DNA of 33,428 nt from Acidimicrobiales bacterium (lineage in GTDB: Bacteria; Actinomycetota; Acidimicrobiia; Acidimicrobiales; JABEUL01): positions 1 through 33,428 of the forward strand of contig JABEUL010000089.1 in the NCBI GenBank assembly GCA_013044465.1, given 5' to 3'. The position numbers and the translations under genes were made by a program. Positions within the stretch are counted from its first letter, which is position 1, and the number at the start of each line of letters is the position of its first letter. The notes beneath the pieces were generated by a model. It was not told the DNA's origin. It ran no database searches and worked only from the letters and a program-made list of their open reading frames with translations. This document shows positions 3,452 to 16,919 of this stretch, in pieces.

Positions 3452-3997
3452 GTGTTCCAAGATTGCGAGTATGAGTTTGTGGCTTTGGATTTTGAAACCG
3501 CTACAAGTGAAAGATCTAGCGCCTGCGCCCTTGGAGTGGTTTTTGCCGATTCGCTAGGTCGAGAAGTAGGGAGCGACTACTGGTTGATTAGACCCCCAGG
3601 AAACTATTACTTAGACATAAATATCGGCATTCATGGAATCTATCCAGAGCAGACCCAGGAGTCTCCAAATTTTGGAGACCTTTGGAGTGAGATCTCGGAT
3701 CTCTTTGTGGGGAAAACCCTAATTGCACACAATGCACCATTTGATAAAGGTGTCCTTAATTCGACCCTAATGCACTATGGACATGAGCCAGTAGATAATA
3801 CATTTATCTGCTCACTAGCTCTAGCCAGGCGCTATCTCAGAGATCTCTCACGATACAAGCTCTCTTGCATAGCTAACTATTTTGAATACGACTTCATACA
3901 CCACAATGCTCTTGAAGATGCCAGGGCATGTCTATTTGTGGCGAACAAATCAGTAGAGTATTCGCCATTTGATTCAATTCACTCAGCCTGGAAGTAG
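3452..3997 (+). CDS. DEDDh 3'-5' exonuclease (DnaQ-like)
   Basis: Cytoplasmic exonuclease of the DNA polymerase III epsilon superfamily; it could take part in proofreading, repair or RNA processing. Exo I is VALDFETA (catalytic Asp and Glu), Exo II is IAHNAPFDKGVL (Asp) and Exo III is HNALEDA (His and Asp), so all five DEDDh residues are present. The open frame extends back to a TTG at 3392. I prefer GTG 3452 because AAGG lies 5 nt before it and the domain then starts at the usual distance. It has no polymerase, BRCT or GIY-YIG domain (about 181 aa), unlike larger fused versions. It stands alone, so its role in the cell is open. Confidence 0.85.
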   Translation: MFQDCEYEFVALDFETATSERSSACALGVVFADSLGREVGSDYWLIRPPGNYYLDINIGIHGIYPEQTQESPNFGDLWSEISDLFVGKTLIAHNAPFDKGVLNSTLMHYGHEPVDNTFICSLALARRYLRDLSRYKLSCIANYFEYDFIHHNALEDARACLFVANKSVEYSPFDSIHSAWK

Positions 3998-4170
3998 TGG
4001 AGCTTCTCTTCTCGAGAACGAAACGGAAGGTTAACTTCTACTTATTTCCTGTAACACTATTCCTTTATTTTGACTCTGCCTATGCACATTTGGGTGCAGA
4101 TTCAAGCTGCCGTTTCATCAGAGAAAGACAGTTAATAATTATTGGTAGTTAAAGAGATGAAAACGAGTTT

Positions 4171-4545
4171 CTAGCGGATCTTAAATCCAAGTGCAGCTGC
4201 AGCTTCTTTGTCTATTAGCGCTGGGCTCCAGGGAGGGTCCCACACGACATTTACTTCGACTGCCACCGCTTTGCCCAATCGTTCGGAAATTGCCATCCGG
4301 GCTGCTTCAGATAGGCTTTCTGAAGCTGGGCACCCCTCAGTGGTCAAAGTCATATCCACTGATATGTCTCCGTTATTTTCACGAATGTCATAGATGAGAC
4401 CGAGGGATACCACGTCTAAGTAAAGCTCAGGGTCATAAACGCATCGAAGTGCATCCCAGGCTGCCTCGACTGCATTATCTACCGGTGTCACAGTCCTAAT
4501 TGGACCGATTGCTACGGGTGTTGTGCTTTTGGTATCTTCTGTCAT
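4171..4545 (-). CDS. MIP18/DUF59 family Fe-S assembly-type protein (PaaD/SufT-like)
   Basis: Small protein of the MIP18 (DUF59) family, whose members help mature Fe-S proteins. The family core is visible as VYDPELYLDVVSLGLIYDI (about residues 36-54), TLTTEGCPASESL with the conserved Cys (about residue 72), and VWDPPWSP near the end. The N-terminal 22 residues are extra and hydrophilic. Its ATG overlaps the TGA of the upstream DUF2249 gene (ATGA), so the two are translationally coupled. The pairing and the divergent heme-type membrane protein next door suggest it serves a redox or nitric-oxide-related enzyme rather than general Suf assembly; that link is inference. Confidence 0.85.
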   Translation of the reverse strand: MTEDTKSTTPVAIGPIRTVTPVDNAVEAAWDALRCVYDPELYLDVVSLGLIYDIRENNGDISVDMTLTTEGCPASESLSEAARMAISERLGKAVAVEVNVVWDPPWSPALIDKEAAAALGFKIR

Positions 4546-4763
4546 AGTTGCCTTTTAAATGTGACTCGCCAGTCGCCTGCACCGATTTCTTCTGCTTCGT
4601 ATGAAAAACCTTGAGCGCCTAAAACGCCTTCCAGTGGAACGGGTTCAAATGGTGCCAGGATTACAAGATCCTCCAGTACATCAAGTGCAGCCACAGTGGA
4701 CATAATGAGGTCAAAGGGTTCCTCACCTCTAGCAATGATAGGACGTGCATCAACAGTTGCCAT
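4542..4763 (-). CDS. DUF2249 domain protein
   Basis: A 73-aa TusA-like-fold protein. The track ORF starts at 4790, but ATG 4763 is preceded by a strong AAGGAGG six bases upstream, fixing the start as MATVDARPIIARGEEP. The DUF2249 pattern is visible as DARP...GEEPF...I......L......L.ILAPFEPVPL, followed by a GDWRVTF end. Members are often found with hemerythrin-like or nitrogen-oxide genes and are thought to bind small ligands or act as sulfur/redox partners; the molecular role is not established. First gene of a two-gene operon. Confidence 0.85.
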   Translation of the reverse strand: MATVDARPIIARGEEPFDLIMSTVAALDVLEDLVILAPFEPVPLEGVLGAQGFSYEAEEIGAGDWRVTFKRQL

Positions 4764-5109
4764 AGTCGGCCTCCTTATTTGGTCACACAATTGACCTAAT
4801 AAAATTATAACCGATCAATTAAATGAGCAGTCTTAGTGCCAATTAAACTACTTAGGGCTCGGACTGCCACGACATATCAGCATAAATGCACACTACTAGT
4901 TGATCCTCATTATTTACCCTGGATCTGGCTTCGTCGCATCAGATTTGAATTGGGTGTCTTGATTTCTTCTAGGCTTGAGAGATCAGAAAATATGTGAGCA
5001 AAGTATCTAAAAGAGCCGTGAAGCTTTGGAAAGAGCGAGTGTGGGATGTGATTCCGATCGATAAGTGCCGAAATAGGTACCAGAAAAGTCCTCTGCATTT
5101 GGGGTCATT
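4764..5109. promoter_or_regulatory. Divergent intergenic region with TATAAT box for the DUF2249 operon
   Basis: 346 bp without a convincing gene. On the minus strand TATAAT (complement of 4804-4809) lies about 40 nt before ATG 4763, giving a 5' leader of about 34 nt containing AAGGAGG. ATTGA (about 4791) and TCAAT (about 4815) flank this box as a spaced inverted repeat, a possible regulator site. I see no clear promoter for the rightward gene. The 4910-5098 and 5007-5312 minus ORFs look like shadows. Confidence 0.4.
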
Positions 5110-6492
5110 TTGACTACAATCCCTATAACATCTCCTGGGGCAGCTCCAGGAAAAAGTCTCGGAGGTTGGGATGGACGCCCACCTGGCTTACCCAGTGCCA
5201 TCCCTCCACCGTCAGTCCCTCTTAGTTTCCTTCTCGCATCGGCATTTGGTTTAGTTGCTTGTGGAGCTTTTCTTATTTGGAGTCGTAGCATCGCCATGGT
5301 TGATCCAACCAATGACCATGTAGTGGCAACTGCTCATTTAGCAATGTTGGCAACTCTATCTATGGGTGTCCTAGGAGCGCTCCATCAGTTCACTCCTGTA
5401 ATTACCCAACGTCCATTGCGCTCCATAAAGCTCTCTCGGGCAACTTTTTTGAGCTGGCTTTTAGGGTCATGGTTACTCCCAATAGGCTTTGCCACTACAC
5501 ATGAATTTGTAGTTGAAGCAGGAGGGTTCTTTGCTGGTCTAGCTGTGATTTTATTGGTGGTAAATATTATTCCTGCTCTAAGTGCAAAGGGGAAAGGGGC
5601 TCCAGTGACCGGGCTCCGACTAGCCGTTATTGGTTTTGTGATAACTGCGTGTTATGGGATTGTTTACGTTGTAGATAGACGGGGCAACTGGTTTGACTTA
5701 AATGGACGGGTAGTACTGGCCCACGCAATAATTGGAATGTTCGGATGGCTTGGGCTCAGTTATGTAAGTGTCGCTGAAAAACTCTGGCCAATGTTTTTAC
5801 TAGCACATGTTCCTGGTCGCAGAAGGTCTTCGTGGGTTTCAGTTTGGGCAATTGCAGGCGGAGTGGTATTAATTTCACCTGCACTGCTATTTAACTTAGT
5901 GTGGCTCATATGGATCGGCGTAGTAGTGCTAATAATCGGACTCGGTGCACATCTCTACTCCCTTTTAATGCACGTTATGCATCGTCGCCGAAAGGCAGAC
6001 TTGCACCTGCTATTTGTGGTGACCTCGGCGTTCTCACTTATTGCAGCCATTGGACTCGCACTTGGTGCAACACTAACAATGAGCCATCATCACCATCTAG
6101 GCGTTGCCCTCACTTCTTCCATGGTTGGAGCTATCGGTGGTTGGCTATTGATAGCTTATGTCGGTCACTTGCATAAGGTCGTGCCCTTTATTCTATGGTC
6201 AGTCCTGCGGGGAAAAGGAATCAAAGAAAAGCCTGATAAAACCCAACTCATGTTTGCTGACCTTTACAATCATCAGTTTGCTTTCCTTGACTATGCGCTA
6301 GTCACGACCGGCATTTGCGCAGTATGCGTGGGCCTGGCAGGGTCATTTTCGATCTTGATTTTGATTGGTGGAATACTGTTAATTGCAACTGGATTAACAG
6401 TACCAGTGAATTTATCAGTGCCGACTCTTCGTTTCCTATCACAGTCCAAAACTACTAGCACTCCTACAAATGGTGATCCAAAAATTCAGTAA
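5110..6492 (+). CDS. Polytopic membrane protein, heme-copper-oxidase/NnrS-like
   Basis: 460 aa with a proline/glycine-rich N-terminal tail of about 37 residues, then about 12 predicted TM helices. Histidines fall at helix positions that recall heme-copper oxidase subunit I or NnrS: H76 and H92 (AHLAMLATLSMGVLGALHQF), H205 (LAHAIIGMFGWLG), an MSHHHH cluster (326-329) and GHLHKVVPF (352-356). The HH pair of a true CuB site is not evident, so it is probably not a terminal oxidase. It is divergent from DUF2249-MIP18, which favours a nitric-oxide/heme stress or respiratory role (inference). The start is TTG 5110 with GGGG just upstream; no ATG alternative in this frame lies near the N-terminus. 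Confidence 0.65.
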   Translation: MTTIPITSPGAAPGKSLGGWDGRPPGLPSAIPPPSVPLSFLLASAFGLVACGAFLIWSRSIAMVDPTNDHVVATAHLAMLATLSMGVLGALHQFTPVITQRPLRSIKLSRATFLSWLLGSWLLPIGFATTHEFVVEAGGFFAGLAVILLVVNIIPALSAKGKGAPVTGLRLAVIGFVITACYGIVYVVDRRGNWFDLNGRVVLAHAIIGMFGWLGLSYVSVAEKLWPMFLLAHVPGRRRSSWVSVWAIAGGVVLISPALLFNLVWLIWIGVVVLIIGLGAHLYSLLMHVMHRRRKADLHLLFVVTSAFSLIAAIGLALGATLTMSHHHHLGVALTSSMVGAIGGWLLIAYVGHLHKVVPFILWSVLRGKGIKEKPDKTQLMFADLYNHQFAFLDYALVTTGICAVCVGLAGSFSILILIGGILLIATGLTVPVNLSVPTLRFLSQSKTTSTPTNGDPKIQ

Positions 6493-6554: not shown

Positions 6555-6584
6555 TTGGTTCTTGGACCCAAGACTTACTAGAAT
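6555..6584 (+). promoter_or_regulatory. Promoter (TTGGTT-18-TAGAAT), leaderless
   Basis: TTGGTT (6555-6560) and TAGAAT (6579-6584) are 18 bp apart. The ATG at 6592 is 7 nt past the box and no SD is present, so transcription probably begins at or next to the start codon. Confidence 0.5.
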
Positions 6585-6591
6585 TTTGACC

Positions 6592-7128
6592 ATGCGCCAC
6601 CGAGCCTTATTTGGAGCTTTATTAGCCTTTATATTCGTCGTCGCTCTAGTTATCTTGTACTTTAATTGGGGTGTTGTCACAGGACCCCATGGGGGCGATC
6701 CCCATTTTGCTATAGCTAATGAGCTAGCACAGGTAGATAAGGCACTTCCTCCGAACTCAACTGGCCTACATTCCAATTGGGTACCTACTCAATGGGACCA
6801 AGCGTGTTCTTCAAGCGATAGGCCAGGATGGTCAATGGAATTGAATTGGCTTTTATTCAACACAATGTCATCTGATACTGCGATTGTGAATTTTGTTTCA
6901 AAAAAACTTCTAACTATGGGATGGAAGCCAACGAATTCATATTTCGACGGAATGTGGCAGTATCCGCCGGCTGCGAAGTGGACTAAAATCATCCCAGGTG
7001 CTGCAAAGGTCGTGGCATTTGTCATGAAAGAACCAGAGACAACACTGCCTCCTGGCCAGTCGACATGGGAGCTAGCCGCTGAGGCCTTTCCTGAACCTGT
7101 AGTTAATGCTCCGAGTTGCCATCCTTAA
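6592..7128 (+). CDS. Membrane-anchored exported hypothetical protein
   Basis: About 178 aa from ATG 6592; the track start TTG 6562 would include the promoter and is disfavoured. The N-terminus MRHRALFGALLAFIFVVALV forms a signal anchor, and the rest (about 150 residues, Trp- and Pro-rich, two Cys) would lie outside the membrane. No known domain is recognised. Motifs such as STGLHSNWVP, ELNWLLFNTM and GMWQYPPAAKW suggest a small globular ectodomain. It follows the histidine-rich membrane protein by about 100 bp on the same strand but appears to have its own promoter. Confidence 0.65.
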   Translation: MRHRALFGALLAFIFVVALVILYFNWGVVTGPHGGDPHFAIANELAQVDKALPPNSTGLHSNWVPTQWDQACSSSDRPGWSMELNWLLFNTMSSDTAIVNFVSKKLLTMGWKPTNSYFDGMWQYPPAAKWTKIIPGAAKVVAFVMKEPETTLPPGQSTWELAAEAFPEPVVNAPSCHP

Positions 7129-7596: not shown

Positions 7597-7621
7597 TTGG
7601 GCTTTTTGATCTAAGCCCCAA
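7597..7621. terminator. Bidirectional terminator hairpin between convergent genes
   Basis: TTGGGCTT pairs with AAGCCCCAA (one bulged base) around the loop TTTGATCT. The TAG stop of the minus-strand TrkA gene (7611-7613) sits in or next to the loop. A T-rich tract is present on the minus-strand side. Confidence 0.6.
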
Positions 7622-8273
7622 TTAAAATTGCATGCACTTGAGGCTCAGCATCGGCGGTTACTAGGACTAAAACTTCATCCGAAGGACCAAGTATCGTGTC
7701 ACCCCGAGGAACCACTACGTGTCGATCCCTTACGACGGCTACAACTGTGGCATCTCTTGGAAGCCCCAAGTCTGCAATCACAGATCCTGACGCTGGCGAG
7801 TCTTCTGCCAGAGTGACTTCAACTAATCGGGCATCCCCTCCACCAAACTGTAAAAGTCGCACTAACGATCCGACACTAACAGCCTCTTCGACGAGGGCCG
7901 ACAGAAGGTGAGGAGTAGATACAGACACATCAACACCCCAAGACTCATTAAAGAGCCACATATTCTCTGGGTGGTTAACTCTTGCTACCACCCTTGGGAC
8001 GGCAAACTCTTGCTTTGCTAAGAGACTAATTACTAGATTGTCTTCGTCATCACCGGTGGCGGCCACTACAACATCTACCGTGTCAAAACCTGCTTTTTGA
8101 AGAGCGCTAACCTCGCAGGCGTCAGCTCCAATCCACTGAATATTTGGGGAGGGCTTTAGTTTGGAAACTAATTCTATATCCTTTTCGAGCACCAATACTG
8201 TGTGATGAGCAGCAGCTAAGTCATGGGCAATAAATGTGCCCACATTGCCTGCCCCACATATAGCTACCTTCAC
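7611..8273 (-). CDS. TrkA-family K+ regulatory (RCK) protein, second of pair
   Basis: Cytosolic gating subunit of a Trk/Ktr-type or related K+ transport system, 220 aa. RCK_N begins with the NAD-binding MKVAICGAGNVGTFIA (residues 1-16), the acidic residue after strand 2 is in VLVLEKD, and the ADACEVSALQKAG and ATGDDEDNLV motifs follow. RCK_C covers about 135-220. Start is GTG 8273 with AAAGG about 10 nt upstream. It lies 42 bp downstream of another trkA on the same strand, matching the paired ceoB/ceoC arrangement of mycobacteria. No TrkH channel subunit is visible nearby; the adjacent permease is KimA-like. Confidence 0.88.
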   Translation of the reverse strand: MKVAICGAGNVGTFIAHDLAAAHHTVLVLEKDIELVSKLKPSPNIQWIGADACEVSALQKAGFDTVDVVVAATGDDEDNLVISLLAKQEFAVPRVVARVNHPENMWLFNESWGVDVSVSTPHLLSALVEEAVSVGSLVRLLQFGGGDARLVEVTLAEDSPASGSVIADLGLPRDATVVAVVRDRHVVVPRGDTILGPSDEVLVLVTADAEPQVHAILIGA

Positions 8274-8315: not shown

Positions 8316-8990
8316 CTACTTTTCAACTTTATTACCGCTTTTCATATCACCGAGTAATTCATGGAACTCACTGAGTGCCGATCGAATCACTGCAAAATAC
8401 AGAAGGTCGCCTTCTTGGCCAACAGCTTCAGCTGATGGGATCATTGGCTCGCCGGCCCTGGAGACTCCCACTAGGCGTACTTTACCTGGAATTTCTAAAG
8501 CTGAGAACTTTTTCCCTCCACAACTGGCTGGAAGCAAGTGCTCAAGTAGTTGCAAATTGCCGGTGTTGTCGTTCCATTCAGTTGCAGTCGTTTCAGGGAA
8601 GAGTCTTCTGTGGACTTGCTCAGTTGTCCAGGCAACAGTGGCCACTGTCGGAATGCCCAATCTCTGATATATCTCAGCTCTCCTGGGATCGTATATTCGA
8701 GCTACGACATTTGGAATATTGAAGTTCTCTCTTGCAATTCTGGCCGTGAGGATATTGGAATTATCACCACTTGTCACAGCAGCCAACGCCGCAGCCCTCT
8801 CGGCACCAGCCTCAATCAAGTCGTCTCTATCAAATCCAAATCCCACAATCTTTGTCCCAGTCCATTCAGGAGGAAGCCTTCTAAATGAGTGAGGTGATTT
8901 ATCAACAATCGATACTGTGTGACCGCTATCAACAAGACTTGTTGCTAGGCCACTTCCTACTCTTCCACAACCAACTACGATAATGTGCAC
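8316..8990 (-). CDS. TrkA-family K+ regulatory (RCK) protein, first of pair
   Basis: Single RCK protein, about 224 aa. The conserved beginning is MHIIVVGCGRVGSGLA if GTG 8990 is the start; the track extends to GTG 9005, adding five non-conserved residues. NAD-binding GxGRxG, the acidic residue in SIVDKS, and GDNSNILTARIA are typical of RCK_N. The C-terminal half (VRLVGVSRAGEP...EGDLLYFAV) is RCK_C. It is the promoter-proximal gene of the pair and divergent from the KimA-like permease (about 120 bp between starts), so the two units are probably coordinated to set cytoplasmic K+. Confidence 0.88.
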   Translation of the reverse strand: MHIIVVGCGRVGSGLATSLVDSGHTVSIVDKSPHSFRRLPPEWTGTKIVGFGFDRDDLIEAGAERAAALAAVTSGDNSNILTARIARENFNIPNVVARIYDPRRAEIYQRLGIPTVATVAWTTEQVHRRLFPETTATEWNDNTGNLQLLEHLLPASCGGKKFSALEIPGKVRLVGVSRAGEPMIPSAEAVGQEGDLLYFAVIRSALSEFHELLGDMKSGNKVEK

Positions 8991-9112
8991 CCTAATATGC
9001 AACACTTAATTTGCCACAAAAGCAAACCAATCGCCATAAGCAGGGCTTTTAGGAACGAATTTGCAAGGGATCAACTAAAGGCTTGTTCTTTGTTGGCTAG
9101 GCTAGGTAACTA

Positions 9113-11485
9113 GTGACCGAAGAAGATACCATAAATAGCGGGGAGCAAGATGCCTTTTTGCCACCCGAGCGGCTTAGCTACAGATTAAAGCGAGTGCTAT
9201 TAGGCCAACCCCTTGTCTCAGAGAGGCTCTCCACCGAACGAATAGGGCGACCAACTGCATTGGCGGTGCTTTCTAGCGATGTTATGTCGTCATCTGCATA
9301 TGCAACCGAGCAGATTTTAATTGTGCTGGTTTTGGCAGTTGGCACTGGTGCCTATTCGCTAGTAGTTCCAATCACAGTTGGAATACTCTTTGTTTTAGTT
9401 ACGGTCACACTTTCATACTTGCAAGTAATAAAGGCATTCCCTAAAGCTGGCGGGGCTTATATGGTGACACGGGACACTTTTGGGAAAAATGTGGCCCAAA
9501 TAGCAAGTGCCGCACTTTTGATTGACTACACCCTGACGGTCGCAGTTTCTGTGGCCGCAGGAGTTGATGCCATGACCTCGGCTATTCCAGCATTACTTCC
9601 CTATACAGTTTATTTCTCAGTATTTTTTGTTGTTCTTATTGCTTATGGAAACCTCCGTGGAATAAGGGAGGCTGGGAAAACCTTTGCTATCCCTACTTTC
9701 GTCTTTATCTTCAGTATGGCTGTTTTGATAGTGGTTGGCATTGTGAAGTGGCTCACTGGAGGTTTGGGATTTGCAAATCAGCATTTACCTGACAGCTACA
9801 AGTTCGCCAGTCCAGGGCATGGCATATTAGTCGGCGCTTCCCTTTTTGTCATGGCTCAAGCATTCGCAAATGGTGGTACTGCCCTGACAGGGACAGAGGC
9901 CATCTCTAACGGAGTTTCCATTTTTAAGATAACACATAAATCCAGGAAAGGAATGCTTTCGGGACTAGAGGGGCAGTCGAAAAATGCCCGGACGACACTT
10001 GTGGCAATGAGCATAGTCTTAGGAACCATGTTTTTTGGAGTCTCTTTCTTGAGCGCCGTTGTGCACCCGATTCCTCAGCAAAGTGGAATCCCAACCGTAG
10101 TGTCGCAGATTGCCTCAACGGTATATGGAAATGGTTTTTTAGGAAAAGGACTTTACATATTTTTGCAAATTGCAACTACGGCAATTTTGATTTTGGCTGC
10201 CAATACAAGCTTCTCAGGTTTTCCGCTTCTAGCGAGCTTTGCCGCAGAGGATTCGTTTTTGCCAAGGCAGTTAATGAGGCGTGGTCACAGACTTGTGTTT
10301 TCAAACGGAATCTTGGTTCTTACTACAATGTCCATTATTTTGCTTGTTGCAACTAGAGCCCGGGTAACTTCACTTATTGCACTTTATGCAATAGGGGTTT
10401 TCACCGGCTTTACTATGGCTGGCGCTGGCATGGTAAAGCATCACTTAGTAAACAAGGAAAAGAACTGGCGGATTCGAGTTGTAATAAATGGGACCTCTTG
10501 TGTATTGAGTTTTTTTGTGGACCTTATGTTTATCGTCACAAAATTCACAGAGGGAGCTTGGGTAGTGGTTGTATTGATGCCACTGATGGTTATTGGTTTC
10601 ATTATGCTCCATCGCCAGTATGAATCAGAGGAAAAAATACTGGAAGAAAATGCCCCGGCACTGTGTGAGTCACCAATTCTTCGACGCCATGTTGTAATTG
10701 TTTTAGTTGAGAGGTTGGACCTAGCTACGGCTAGAGCTATTCAGTTTGCTAGAACTCTCACACCTGATGATTTGAGAGCTGTGCATTTCGTGCTCGACCC
10801 GCAAGCTGCCATGAATCTCGAAAACGGGTGGAAACGACTTGGGTTGTCGAGACTTCCACTTGATGTCATGGAATGTGGCGATCGAAGGCTTGGAAGAGCA
10901 GTTGCTGAACTTGTGGCCGATCTAGCATCGGATCAAGAAACCGAAGTAAGTATTCTCTTGCCAAGGCGAGTTTATGTAGGAGCGCTTAGAAGACTGTTGC
11001 ATGACAGGACCGCCGAGCGAATTTCGGCACTAGTTTCTCAGATGCCACATGCCAGTGCCACAATTATCCCATTCCAACTCGAGAAAAAGAACCCCAGGAT
11101 CCACATGCCATCACCTGGCAGACAGTCAAGACGTGCCGCTGAAGCCGCTGCAGAGCTTGAGAGCTTTGAGGTTAAAGATGTAACTGGAACTGTGATGATT
11201 GGGTCGCTTACCTATAGAACGAGAACCAGGATTGCAGGACGAGTCCTATCTGTCAGAGTGCAACCTCGTGCCGGAATTGCCTCCCTTGAGTGCATTGTGG
11301 CTGATCAGAGCGGGAAAATAACCTTAGTTTTCCAAGGGCGCCGTAGTGTCCCTGGGATTCAGCCGGGAACCAGGCTTGTGGCCGAAGGAATGGTTGGGAA
11401 GCGTGGAAACCAACTCTTGATAATGAATCCGACCTACGAATTGCGCTCCACCCACGAATTAGACAACGTTATTACACCATCTTGA
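9113..11485 (+). CDS. KimA-like APC potassium permease fused to a C-terminal OB-fold domain
   Basis: 790 aa. Residues about 20-500 are an APC-superfamily transporter of the KimA type: LGQPLVSERL, AVLSSDVMSSSAYATEQIL (about 50-68), FPKAGGAYMVTRD, DYTLTVAVSVAAGVDA and NLRGIREAG all match the KimA pattern, implying proton-coupled K+ uptake. Residues about 524-655 (RRHVVIVLVERLDLATA...) resemble the cytoplasmic USP-like regulatory domain of KimA. Residues about 690-790 form an extra OB-fold-like unit (RIAGRVLSVRVQPR, CIVADQSGKITLVFQGRR, PGIQPGTRLVAEGMV, MNPTYEL). As I recall, that unit is a separate small gene near ceoBC in other actinobacteria (the Rv2694c type), so this looks like a fusion. Start is GTG 9113, with a TAGG-rich region immediately upstream and no SD. 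Confidence 0.85.
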   Translation: MTEEDTINSGEQDAFLPPERLSYRLKRVLLGQPLVSERLSTERIGRPTALAVLSSDVMSSSAYATEQILIVLVLAVGTGAYSLVVPITVGILFVLVTVTLSYLQVIKAFPKAGGAYMVTRDTFGKNVAQIASAALLIDYTLTVAVSVAAGVDAMTSAIPALLPYTVYFSVFFVVLIAYGNLRGIREAGKTFAIPTFVFIFSMAVLIVVGIVKWLTGGLGFANQHLPDSYKFASPGHGILVGASLFVMAQAFANGGTALTGTEAISNGVSIFKITHKSRKGMLSGLEGQSKNARTTLVAMSIVLGTMFFGVSFLSAVVHPIPQQSGIPTVVSQIASTVYGNGFLGKGLYIFLQIATTAILILAANTSFSGFPLLASFAAEDSFLPRQLMRRGHRLVFSNGILVLTTMSIILLVATRARVTSLIALYAIGVFTGFTMAGAGMVKHHLVNKEKNWRIRVVINGTSCVLSFFVDLMFIVTKFTEGAWVVVVLMPLMVIGFIMLHRQYESEEKILEENAPALCESPILRRHVVIVLVERLDLATARAIQFARTLTPDDLRAVHFVLDPQAAMNLENGWKRLGLSRLPLDVMECGDRRLGRAVAELVADLASDQETEVSILLPRRVYVGALRRLLHDRTAERISALVSQMPHASATIIPFQLEKKNPRIHMPSPGRQSRRAAEAAAELESFEVKDVTGTVMIGSLTYRTRTRIAGRVLSVRVQPRAGIASLECIVADQSGKITLVFQGRRSVPGIQPGTRLVAEGMVGKRGNQLLIMNPTYELRSTHELDNVITPS

Positions 11486-11551
11486 CATTGCCATCTACCT
11501 GGTATTTTACGCTTCCTATGGCCAAGAGTTATTAGAGAATTTACTCGGTTG

Positions 11552-11581
11552 TTGATTAGGGGTCTCAAAATTCGGTATCGT
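11552..11581 (+). promoter_or_regulatory. Candidate hppA promoter (TTGATT-18-TATCGT)
   Basis: TTGATT at 11552-11557 and TATCGT at 11576-11581 are 18 bp apart. This would give a leader of about 110 nt before hppA, long for this window, and the leader contains a perfect hairpin. Confidence 0.4.
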
Positions 11582-11651
11582 ATATTGGTCGCTCAGGGCG
11601 GGTTGTAAATACGCGCCGTGGATCGAGCCGAATCAAATGATTCAAAATCTT

Positions 11652-11671
11652 CCAACTTCGAGTGAAGTTGG
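11652..11671 (+). promoter_or_regulatory. Perfect leader hairpin just upstream of the hppA RBS
   Basis: CCAACTTC / GAGT / GAAGTTGG is an 8-bp perfect stem with a 4-nt loop, followed by CTTTAATTT and then GAAGGAG, 10 nt before the ATG. It could be an attenuator or RNA-stability element controlling hppA. It could also be the terminator of the preceding permease transcript, though the T tract is short. Confidence 0.5.
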
Positions 11672-11697
11672 CTTTAATTTGAAGGAGTCAAATACCA

Positions 11698-14046
11698 ATG
11701 CCTCACCTCGTTGCTGCTGAAGGCGGCTACCAGGCTTTTAGTTTAGGTGGAGCCGAAAAAGGCTGGCTGTACTTTGCCATTGCTGCTGCTTTAATCTCCA
11801 TGATTGTTGGCGTTACTCTCATGCGCGGTGTCCTTGCTGCTGATCAGGGAACCCAATCAATGAAAGATATAGCAAAGGCCATCCAAGAAGGTGCGGAAGC
11901 TTTCCTGCGCCGCCAGTTCAAAACGATTTTAATTATCGTCGTGCCACTTGCAGTCTTGATTTTCTTCACGGCTACCCAAGTTAAAAGACCTGATGGCTCG
12001 ATTGCACTGAGTGCATCTATGGCTGGAGTGTACCGGGTACTTTGCTTTTTAGGCGGAGCAATTTGCAGTGGGGCCACCGGCTTCATTGGAATGAGCTTGG
12101 CCGTAAGGGGAAATGTAAGGACAGCGGCGGCGGCCCGAGATGGCAAGCTTCCTCCAGCTTTGAAAGTCGCATTTAGGACCGGTGCTATCACTGGTCTTTT
12201 CTGTGTCGGTTTAGGACTTTTAGGGGCCACCACGATTGTTTTGATCTTCCAAAATAGCGCTACGGCCGTTTTGGTTGGCTTTGGATTCGGCGCTTCACTT
12301 CTGGCGCTTTTCATGAGGGTTGGTGGAGGAATATTCACCAAAGCAGCTGACGTAGGTGCTGACTTGGTTGGAAAAATTGAGGCTGGGATTCCAGAGGATG
12401 ATCCAAGGAACGCAGCTACAATTGCCGACAACGTCGGTGACAACGTCGGTGACTGTGCCGGAATGGCCGCAGACTTGTTTGAGTCCTATGCCATTACCAT
12501 AATCGCTGCCATTATTTTGGGATACTCTGCTTTCAATTCAATTGGGAAAGGCTCTGAAGCCGCCCGTGCAGTTGTGTTTCCCTTGATTGTTCCGGCAATT
12601 GGAATTATTGCAACCATCGTCGGTGTTTTTGCCGTCCGTGCGAGGGCAAATGAGAAATCGGCCATGGTGGCCATCAACCGAGGTGTTTGGACTGCTTCAC
12701 TTCTAACCATATTGGGAGCAGGATTAGTTGCTGGTTTCTACTTGCACTACATGAAAGCCTTCTATGCCGTCTTAGCGGGTTCAGTTTTGATGCTTATAGT
12801 TTCTGCCATTACAGAGCAGTTCACGTCAACTGAACGATCTCCTGTTAGGGAGATTGCCGCTGCAGCAAGGACTGGACCTGCCACTACAACCCTGGCAGGA
12901 ATTGCATTCGGCCTTGAGTCCTCGGTTTGGGCCATCATTGCCATTGCCATTGCCATTGCAGTTTCCGTGGGGCTAGGTGGTGGAAACATTGAGCTGTCTC
13001 TTTACCTAGTTTCACTAACTGGAATCGGAATGTTGGCAACTGCGGGAATGGTTGTTTCTGAAGACAGTTTCGGACCTGTTTCTGACAATGCCGCAGGAGT
13101 GGCTGAAATGTCTGGAGAGTTCACTGGTGAAGCCGAACGTGTCATGGTCAGTCTCGATGCAGTTGGAAACACCACTAAGGCCATTACAAAAGGTGTTGCC
13201 ATCGGATCTGCTGTGATTGCTTCGGTGTCCTTGTTTGCATCCTTTATCGAGACCGTTGGTTCTCAACTGGGCCTTAATGCCCCGGGAATTGGAAAAGCAG
13301 GATATGACGTCAACTGGTTGTTCCATCAGGCTCAAACTCAGATAAATGTTTCCAATCCAACAACATTCATTGGAATGCTTATTGGTGGATCGGTTGCCTT
13401 CTTGTTCTCAGCACTTGCAATCAGGGCAGTTGGAAGAACAGCTGGCACTGTAGTTCAAGAGGTTAGGCGCCAATTTAGAGAGCACCCTGGAATCATGGAC
13501 TACACAGAAAAGCCTGAGTACGGCAGAGTTATCTCCATTTGCACAGCCGCATCACAGCGTGAACTAGCCACGCCTGCACTCCTTGCAATTTTGACTCCTG
13601 TAATTGTGGGTTTTGGAATTGGATACTTGGCACTTGGTGCGTTTTTGGCTGCAGCCATTTTGACAGGACAGCTCATGGCTAATTTCTTGTCGAACTCTGG
13701 TGGAGCCTGGGATAATGCGAAGAAGTACATTGAAGACGGTCATGAAGGTGGAAAAGGTTCAGATGCCCACAAGGCTGCTGTGATCGGAGACACTGTTGGT
13801 GATCCCTTTAAAGACACCGCTGGTCCGGCTTTGAATCCATTAATCAAAGTCATGAACTTAGTCTCACTTCTTATTCTTCCCATAGTCATCACCAACCAGC
13901 ACCACACTGCAATTCGTCTCACGATATCGGGAATTGCACTTGTAGTGCTACTTATCTCAATTGGATTCTCTAAGCGGTCAACAGGCTCGATGGACGATGA
14001 TATAGCAGGTCCGGCCAAGCAGGTAGAACAAGCTGGGGCCCATTAA
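11698..14046 (+). CDS. hppA: Membrane-bound proton-translocating pyrophosphatase
   Basis: Hydrolyses PPi and pumps H+ across the membrane; 782 aa, about 16 TM helices. Substrate/Mg-binding motifs are visible: [21 protein letters not shown] (from about residue 219), [22 protein letters not shown] and near the C-terminus [18 protein letters not shown]. The K+-dependence signature reads [10 protein letters not shown] (Lys at about 494), the form found in K+-independent enzymes. The C-terminal tail is hydrophilic ([19 protein letters not shown]), longer than in many homologues. ATG 11698 has GAAGGAG 10 nt upstream. The gene is apparently monocistronic with a structured leader. Confidence 0.95.
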
Positions 14047-14156
14047 TAATACAATCGAAAAAGGCGGCCTCTTGCGAGTGCTTCAAGGAAAAATAGCTAA
14101 CTACATGGTAGTTTCCACTAAGTTCTTGACAAAGGACCACTTTATGCATCAACCTA

Positions 14157-16919
14157 GTGGCAGTCATGGCTAAGCCTCTTGTTATTGTCGAATCACCCGC
14201 CAAGGCTCGTACAATTGCGACTTTTTTGGGAAATGAATTCAATGTGGAGTCTTCAATTGGCCACATTAGAGACTTGCCAAGAAGTGCCGCTGAAGTCCCA
14301 GAGGAGCTTAAGGGAGAGTCTTGGTCAAGACTTGGAGTCGATCCCTATAATGACTTCAAGCCGTTATATATAGTCTCTCAAGATAAAAAAAGCCACGTTC
14401 AAAAACTAAAGAAGCTTGTAAAAGAAGCCAGCGAAGTTTACCTGGCAACAGACGAGGACCGAGAAGGTGAATCAATTGCGTGGCACCTTCTAGAGGTTCT
14501 TTCACCCAAGGTTCCTGTCAAGCGAATGGTTTTTCACGAAATTACGAGGGATGCCATCAACCGTGCAGTAAGTGACTGGCGAGAGCTAGATAGAAGACTC
14601 GTAGATGCGCAGGAAACCAGAAGAATATTGGACCGCCTCTATGGATACGAGGTTTCACCTGTTCTTTGGCGCAAAGTTATGCCGAGGCTGTCTGCAGGAC
14701 GTGTCCAGAGTGTGGCTACAAGGATGGTAGTTGAGCGAGAGCGAGCTCGCATGGGATTTAGATCTGCCTCATGGTGGGATTTAGAAGCCTCCCTTTTAAA
14801 GAAGAGCGAGACAGTTCAAGCTGTTTCTATCGAGATAAATGGAATTAGGCTCGCCACTGGAAAAGATTTTGACGAGATTGGCCACTTAACTAAAAAAGAT
14901 GTCATAGTTCTAGGCGAAATAGAAGCAAGATCTCTTGCCGAGTCTCTTTCAGCAGGCAGCTTTAGTGTCAAGAGCATTGAAGAGAGACCATTTAGAAGAT
15001 CTCCTGCACCTCCGTTCATGACATCCACTTTGCAACAAGAGGCTGGTCGCAAGTTGAGATTTGCTGCCGCCAGAACTATGAGAGCCGCACAGAGGCTTTA
15101 CGAAGAGGGTTGGATCACATATATGAGAACCGATTCAACAACTCTTTCGGACGAAGCCATAACAACTGCCAGAAAACTAGCATCTTCGAGATACGGCAAG
15201 AATACAATTCCAGCTAAGCCCAGGCTATATGCAAATAAGGTTAAGAACGCTCAAGAAGCCCATGAAGCAATCAGACCTGCTGGGGACTCGTGGCCCACAC
15301 CCCAAGAGGCTTCTAGGAGCCTCGGGAGTGACGAATCAAAGTTATATGAATTGATTTGGCAGCGCACTGTTGCTTCACAGATGGTGGATGCAAATGGTCA
15401 GAGTGTTCAGGTGAGAATAATTGGCCTCACCAAAAATCCTCCTCCGGCATTCAAAAAAGAAGGATCAAATGAGTGCGAAGCAATATTCTCGGCCTCTGGC
15501 AGAGTAATTACTGAACCTGGGTTCTTAGCGGCTTACGAAGAAGGAAATGATGACAGCGACTCATCTGAGGGCGAGAGTGGAACCTCTAGACTTCCTCAGT
15601 TGGTAGTAGGTGAGGCTCTCACGTGTGGAGAGATGACTCCAAAAGAGCACTCCACTCAACCTCCACCTAGATATAGTGAAGCTTCTTTGATCAAGGCTTT
15701 AGAAGAGATGGGCGTTGGTAGACCCTCTACTTATGCTTCAATTATCGACACTATTCAGCAAAGAGGATATGTTTGGAAAAAGGGCACCGGGTTAGTGCCG
15801 ACTTGGACTGCATTTTCAGTCGTTGGTCTCCTCGAGCGTTACTTTGCGGAGTTAGTTGATTATGGATTCACTGCTTCCATGGAAGATGATCTCGATGAGA
15901 TTGCAACAGGTTCACAAGAGATGGTCCCTTGGTTGCGGAAGTTTTATTTCGGAACCGAGGAACTCCCGGGATTAAAGCCTGCCGTTGAAACCAGGTTGGG
16001 TGAAATTGATGCCAGAGAGATTAACACCCTCCCAATTGGCAAAGACCCAGATGGCACAGACATCTTCGTCAGAGTGGGGAGATATGGACCTTATATTGAA
16101 AGAGGAGAAGACAGGGCTTCGCTTCCAGATACGCAGCCACCCGATGAACTAACCGTGGAGCTAGCTCTCGAAATGCTAGCAGCCCCCACTGGCGACAGAT
16201 TGGTTGGTCAAGATCCAGAAACAGGTTTACAGATTGTTGCCAAAGCCGGGAGATATGGACCCTATGTCCAAATGGAGCTTCCACAAGATGCCGGGAAGTC
16301 AGAAAAGCCAAAAACTGCATCACTTTTCAAATCCATGCAGGTCGAAACCGTGACTCTCGAAGATGCACTATCGCTCTTTAGATTGCCAAGGAGTCTTGGG
16401 ATAGACGAGTCAGTCGGAGTTGAGATTGTAGCTAAAAATGGTCGATACGGCCCCTATTTGGAGCGGGGAAGTGATACGAGAACGCTAGGCAGTGAAGAAG
16501 AACTTCTCACTGTGACCATGGATGAGGCCAAAGAACTTTTCTTGCAGCCAAAAGCTAGAAGACGGCAAAAGCAAGATGCCGCCCCCCAAGTCTCCTTAGG
16601 CGAAGATCCAAATTCAAAGAAGCCCATATTGGTCAAATCGGGGAGGTTTGGTCCTTATGTGACTGATGGGGAAACTAACGCATCCTTGAGAAAGGGTGAT
16701 ACTACAGAGAACTTGACTTTCGAGCGAGCAGTTGAGCTGTTAGAAGAGAGACGGTCAGCCGCACCGAGAGCACCAAGGGCCAAGAAAGCTGCAAAGAAAG
16801 CCGTCAAAAAGACAGCTGTAAAGAAAGCTGCAAAGAAAACCGTCAAAAAGGCTGTTGCAAAAAAAGTAGTGAAAAAAACTGCAACCCCTAAGTCCCAAGT
16901 TGAAGATTCCGGTGAGTGA
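14157..16919 (+). CDS. topA: DNA topoisomerase I
   Basis: Type IA topoisomerase that relaxes negative supercoils; 920 aa from GTG 14157 (ATG 14166 is an alternative and leaves a conventional MAKPLVIVESPAK start). The Toprim domain starts at PLVIVESPAKARTI, with the acidic triad DEDREGE (99-105). The active-site Tyr is Y322 in WITYMRTDST. The C-terminal part has four Topo_C repeats seen as GRYGPY(I/V/L) and GRFGPYV instead of zinc fingers, then a Lys/Ala-rich tail of about 40 residues (AKKAVKKTAVKKAAKK...), as in actinobacterial enzymes, which probably binds DNA. No SD precedes the start; TTGACA lies at 14126 and TATGCAT just before GTG. First gene of topA-tmk-trmH. Confidence 0.95.
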   Translation: MAVMAKPLVIVESPAKARTIATFLGNEFNVESSIGHIRDLPRSAAEVPEELKGESWSRLGVDPYNDFKPLYIVSQDKKSHVQKLKKLVKEASEVYLATDEDREGESIAWHLLEVLSPKVPVKRMVFHEITRDAINRAVSDWRELDRRLVDAQETRRILDRLYGYEVSPVLWRKVMPRLSAGRVQSVATRMVVERERARMGFRSASWWDLEASLLKKSETVQAVSIEINGIRLATGKDFDEIGHLTKKDVIVLGEIEARSLAESLSAGSFSVKSIEERPFRRSPAPPFMTSTLQQEAGRKLRFAAARTMRAAQRLYEEGWITYMRTDSTTLSDEAITTARKLASSRYGKNTIPAKPRLYANKVKNAQEAHEAIRPAGDSWPTPQEASRSLGSDESKLYELIWQRTVASQMVDANGQSVQVRIIGLTKNPPPAFKKEGSNECEAIFSASGRVITEPGFLAAYEEGNDDSDSSEGESGTSRLPQLVVGEALTCGEMTPKEHSTQPPPRYSEASLIKALEEMGVGRPSTYASIIDTIQQRGYVWKKGTGLVPTWTAFSVVGLLERYFAELVDYGFTASMEDDLDEIATGSQEMVPWLRKFYFGTEELPGLKPAVETRLGEIDAREINTLPIGKDPDGTDIFVRVGRYGPYIERGEDRASLPDTQPPDELTVELALEMLAAPTGDRLVGQDPETGLQIVAKAGRYGPYVQMELPQDAGKSEKPKTASLFKSMQVETVTLEDALSLFRLPRSLGIDESVGVEIVAKNGRYGPYLERGSDTRTLGSEEELLTVTMDEAKELFLQPKARRRQKQDAAPQVSLGEDPNSKKPILVKSGRFGPYVTDGETNASLRKGDTTENLTFERAVELLEERRSAAPRAPRAKKAAKKAVKKTAVKKAAKKTVKKAVAKKVVKKTATPKSQVEDSGE

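Follow-up and report, generated by a model that had tools for sequence, protein, structure and literature searches.

The window analysed here, a stretch of 33,428 nucleotides from a bacterium of the order Acidimicrobiales, encodes a KimA-type permease that is extended at its C terminus by an OB-type domain, together with two TrkA-type proteins on the opposite strand and a membrane pyrophosphatase. The features of the locus are as follows.

7611-8273, minus strand: CeoB-type TrkA protein (NAD-binding RCK), matching TrkA_N and TrkA_C; its neighbourhood is kept in relatives
8316-9005, minus strand: CeoC-type TrkA protein (NAD-binding RCK), matching TrkA_N and, weakly, TrkA_C; its orthologue adjoins KimA/OB in relatives
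9113-11485, plus strand: KimA-OB fusion gene of 790 amino acids with a GTG start and without internal stop
9179-10642, plus strand: KimA-type transmembrane domain (residues 23-510), from phmmer against KimA 6s3k, with K+/H+ residues kept
10643-11092, plus strand: KimA cytosolic domain (residues ~511-660), from alignment to KimA, with altered c-di-AMP contact positions
11093-11194, plus strand: linker (residues ~661-694), the stretch between domain matches, dN/dS 0.015
11195-11446, plus strand: OB-type domain (residues ~695-778), from PF01336, the RecG OB region, conservation and dN/dS
11652-11671, plus strand: weak terminator-like hairpin after the KimA-OB gene (one of 4 in the region, against an expectation of 2.8)
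11698-14046, plus strand: membrane H+-pyrophosphatase (PF03030, E 3.9e-245), often the next gene in relatives

The anatomy of the fused protein is settled. Residues 23-637 matched KimA of Bacillus subtilis (PDB 6s3k, 8b70 and 8b71; phmmer E 3e-99), in agreement with the preliminary description of a KimA-like permease, and Pfam returned AA_permease_2 for the 790-residue protein. The window protein shares with B. subtilis KimA, a K+/H+ symporter of the KUP family, both the transmembrane and cytosolic domains and the residues for K+ and protons (D36, Y43, T121, E233 and Y377 in KimA; D56, Y63, T142, E262 and Y425 in the window). These residues were nearly all kept in 83 homologues, with one T121V and one T230S as the deviations among the 55 members of the clade described below, and K+ uptake by the KimA-OB protein is predicted from sequence. 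Differences from B. subtilis KimA lie in the extra C-terminal OB domain, the changed c-di-AMP contacts and the adjoining ceoB and ceoC. No hydrophobic segment was found after residue 520, so the tail is expected to be cytosolic, like the cytosolic domain of KimA.

The tail had been read as an OB-type unit, and profile searches supported this assignment. The last 111 residues on their own matched PF01336 (E 6.6e-6) at 26.4 bits, against a cut-off of 27 bits, and the RecG OB region in NCBIfam (E 4.6e-6). In a 41-member family alignment of tails and standalone homologues, 40 members matched PF01336 (best E 2.4e-9), and the domain call therefore does not depend on the window sequence alone. The fold as such rests on these profiles; an AlphaFold prediction from two sequences, the tails of the window and of locus L061, gave an all-beta order of seven strands with a C-terminal helix at a pLDDT of only 45. 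Across the whole OB unit the nearest solved relative was the wedge/OB domain of RecG (PF01336, PF17191; PDB 1gm5 and 9wm0), which was matched weakly (E 0.016 and 0.16); unlike RecG, the window protein has no helicase and carries a conserved G-R-R motif. Ubiquitin matches in the PDB profile search were discarded as artefactual, being summed from numerous 5-bit fragments of polyubiquitin. The OB domain of the window is basic (pI 11.6), as are nearly all homologues (median net charge +5 in fused forms and +4 in standalone and other forms), and R743, R744, N772, P773 and Y775 were near-invariant across fused and standalone forms, with G-R-R and N-P-x-Y as the conserved motifs.

We found that KimA-OB fusion extends beyond this genome and is the prevailing state within one KimA clade of the class. 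Across 59 related genomes the long fused frame turned up in numerous families of the order, and more were found class-wide, giving 43 fused permeases including that of the window and nine with the OB gene directly downstream. Three further clade members had no OB gene in view, of which two run off contig ends (L091 and L138) and the third is the second permease copy in the L131 locus (3807-5780). In a tree of 84 proteins, accompanied by gene maps of about 80 loci, these 55 permeases formed one clade with support of 100 and a long stem, all of them from this class, and at least three switches between fused and split forms are required on the tree. Residues 655-700, where a stop or frameshift in relatives had been considered, belong to a true fusion, the two units being fused in 42 other loci; an assembly fusion is ruled out by the spread of these loci over many families of the class. 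Where the genes are split, the first codon of OB shares bases with the permease stop (TGATG in L129, ATGA in L131, GTGA in L144 and L151) or is separated from it by anything from a few bases to some tens, which implies translational coupling. Because ordinary start codons are present at or next to the stop, a programmed frameshift was set aside. Comparison of the window with its congener L062 gave dN/dS values of 0.007 for the OB domain, 0.010 for the cytosolic domain, 0.015 for the linker and 0.023 for the transmembrane domain, indicating that the OB unit is selected as a protein under purifying selection. A literature search on KimA and OB-fold found no mention of a KimA-OB fusion.

Variation in copy number and domain number was also seen among KimA homologues. 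Two fused KimA-OB genes stand in tandem at L077 (7796-12709), while homologues in L153-L161, L122, L123 and L126 have two tandem cytosolic domains, amounting to about 150 extra residues, and two such double-domain KimAs are in tandem in L123. No OB or TrkA match occurred within the 7-9 kb around the double-domain KimA in L153-L161; in L122, L123 and L126 an OB gene and ceoBC are both nearby.

Outside the class the OB unit is a gene of its own, and the preliminary description was right to recall a separate small gene near ceoBC and the permease, as KimA lay within 10 kb of it in 59 of 66 loci and a CeoC-like TrkA gene in 64 of 66, with OB, ceoB, ceoC and KimA near one another in example loci. 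The actinobacterial standalone protein, which we take to be Rv2694c in Mycobacterium tuberculosis, belongs to the same OB family and has the same K+ gene neighbourhood and the G-R and N-P motifs, but is separately encoded, ~120 amino acids long, and has an N-terminal segment (R-L-T...) that is absent from the fused form. Among 299 genomes of the phylum (raw counts, relatedness ignored), OB and KimA occurred together in 93, OB only in 2, KimA only in 28 and neither in 176. OB matches weaker than ~1e-14 in frames of at least 650 residues were taken as RecG and left out of these counts, and CeoC was dropped as a phylum-wide presence marker in favour of linkage because RCK paralogues blur it. Since 28 of the 121 KimA-bearing genomes had no detected OB gene, OB is probably dispensable for the function of KimA in itself. 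Within the order (59 genomes, shared descent ignored), OB and CeoC were both present in 35 and both missing in 21, with three exceptions: G003 (a 4-kb contig), G002 (KimA truncated by the contig end) and G038. Seven genomes of the order with KimA and without OB also lacked CeoC, and neither OB nor CeoC was found in any KimA-less genome. In Streptomyces, synteny between an OB protein and trkA has been mentioned briefly (PMC13118837), and part of the linkage was thus known before; cluster 13947 of that study is probably the standalone OB protein.

A coherent K+ locus with an adjacent TrkA pair had likewise been proposed, and this held: both genes match TrkA_N and TrkA_C, and their linkage is kept in relatives. 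TrkA proteins are cytosolic regulators that normally gate the TrkH channel. No TrkH was found in the window's own family, and the position of CeoBC beside KimA where this usual target of TrkA is absent suggests that CeoBC acts on KimA. Across the order KimA and TrkH are largely mutually exclusive, TrkH being present in 14 of 14 KimA-less genomes versus 6 of 45 with KimA (relatedness ignored). The CeoBC (Trk) system of M. tuberculosis is likewise a pair of TrkA proteins and presumably adjoins a KimA homologue (Rv2690c) and the OB gene, whereas in the window OB and permease make up a single protein. The mycobacterial pair has been described as a K+ transporter of two TrkA proteins in a paper that mentions neither KimA nor Rv2690c (PMC13163235), and in the main text of the mycobacterial CeoBC papers covered here we found no mention of Rv2690c or TrkH. 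S. venezuelae reportedly has KimA homologues but lacks TrkH (PMC10117811).

KimA, CeoB/CeoC and the OB protein likely constitute one K+ uptake system. We consider it probable, with room for doubt, that the gene at 9113-11485 encodes a KimA/KUP-type K+/H+ symporter with a dedicated OB-type C-terminal subunit, working within a KimA-CeoB-CeoC-OB system. The usual actinobacterial form would comprise four genes, for the KimA permease, CeoB, CeoC and an OB protein of ~120 amino acids, and in one KimA clade of the class the OB gene follows immediately on the permease gene or has been joined to it. The permease would move K+ together with H+, CeoB and CeoC would sense NAD(H) or another nucleotide, and the basic OB domain would lie next to the KimA cytosolic domain on the inner side of the membrane, where it may dock CeoBC or bind a nucleotide or nucleic acid and so change permease activity. 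Beyond the observed architecture, conservation, purifying selection, linkage, co-occurrence and changed pocket residues, we infer that the parts form one complex in which CeoBC acts on KimA and not on TrkH, with OB as adaptor or sensor. We read the fused clade as one in which a conserved OB protein became a domain of the permease.

The c-di-AMP pocket bears on how such a system could be regulated. In KimA structures c-di-AMP contacts R337, V457, P479, V506 and H579-S582, and the cytosolic domain is PPAT-like (PMC10284832). The preliminary description had expected a USP-like domain that senses c-di-AMP; the cytosolic domain is present, but it is PPAT-like in the literature and its contacts are changed. 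At the KimA sites the window keeps R337 and H579 and has V457 replaced by E, N580 by D, Q581 by R and S582 by T, the altered contact positions being R619, D631, R632 and T633 in its cytosolic domain and E506 just before that domain, at the end of the last transmembrane helix. The fused clade shows V457E in 54/55, N580D in 53/55, F568R in 47/55 and Q581R in 39/55, and none of these occurred in the 28 canonical homologues; canonical actinobacterial KimAs have V457-type hydrophobics in 27/28, N580 in 25/28 and Q581 in 27/28. R337 is kept in 46 of the 55 clade members and is K in eight. Judged from these residues, the c-di-AMP site of the clade appears changed, not clearly lost, and with its contacts altered c-di-AMP sensing is not simply transferable to the window protein, even though its own genome has a gene for a diadenylate cyclase. 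The (I/L)(I/L)x2DxRx5N(I/L)(I/L) signature of c-di-AMP-binding RCK_C proteins (as given in PMC10117811) was absent from CeoB and CeoC of the window and from 55 orthologues of each.

More tentatively, it is possible that the actinobacterial KimA, CeoB/CeoC and OB machine replaces TrkH-TrkA, and that the fused clade has the OB unit built in, its pocket rebuilt and a ligand other than c-di-AMP. We regard it as unlikely that OB is a new nucleotide or nucleic-acid sensor that replaces or adds to c-di-AMP control, with the site rebuilt in the clade. The four clade substitutions missing from canonical homologues and the lack of the RCK_C signature in both sets of orthologues are consistent with such a sensor, as is a Streptomyces RCK_C protein that is numbered beside a KimA homologue (Vnz_27460, Vnz_27465) and does not bind c-di-AMP (PMC10117811); the basic character of the domain (pI 11.6) and its conserved R-R are only suggestive of nucleic-acid binding. 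However, R337 and H579 are mostly kept, such that c-di-AMP may still bind, the genome encodes a diadenylate cyclase, and an OB gene is retained next to KimAs with the canonical site as well, which argues against OB as a simple replacement.

OB folds can bind proteins, and both the covalent link to the permease and the coupled translation speak for a stoichiometric subunit, so that OB might be a structural or assembly element only, stabilising the dimer or the cytosolic domain without a ligand. We find this improbable, as the near-invariant R743/R744, N772, P773 and Y775 and the positive charge suggest a binding surface, and the co-absence of OB with CeoC points to CeoBC. That the fusion is due to chance or assembly, or that the tail is not an OB domain, would fit the sub-threshold PF01336 score of the window (26.4 bits) and the pLDDT of 45, but is exceedingly improbable given 42 further fused loci, PF01336 matches in 40 of 41 alignment members (best 2.4e-9) and an OB dN/dS of 0.007.

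The favoured reading, a K+/H+ symporter with a dedicated OB subunit, ties an uncharacterised and widespread actinobacterial OB protein to K+ uptake through fusion, coupling, linkage and co-absence, and provides KimA as a candidate membrane permease for CeoBC. These results suggest that potassium uptake involves this overlooked OB protein as a functional component.

Downstream, the proton-pumping pyrophosphatase beside a K+/H+ symporter may reflect functional coupling. The order KimA-OB, H+-pyrophosphatase and topoisomerase I was seen in the window (9113-16919) and in L063, L064, L066, L069, L072, L078 and L080. Within the window no RNA element reached the gathering threshold, and a promoter scan gave no more matches than chance. 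On the other side, a 188-amino-acid protein encoded at 6562-7128 on the plus strand adjoins the locus; it has no Pfam match at E 0.01 and shows 81% identity in the congener L062.
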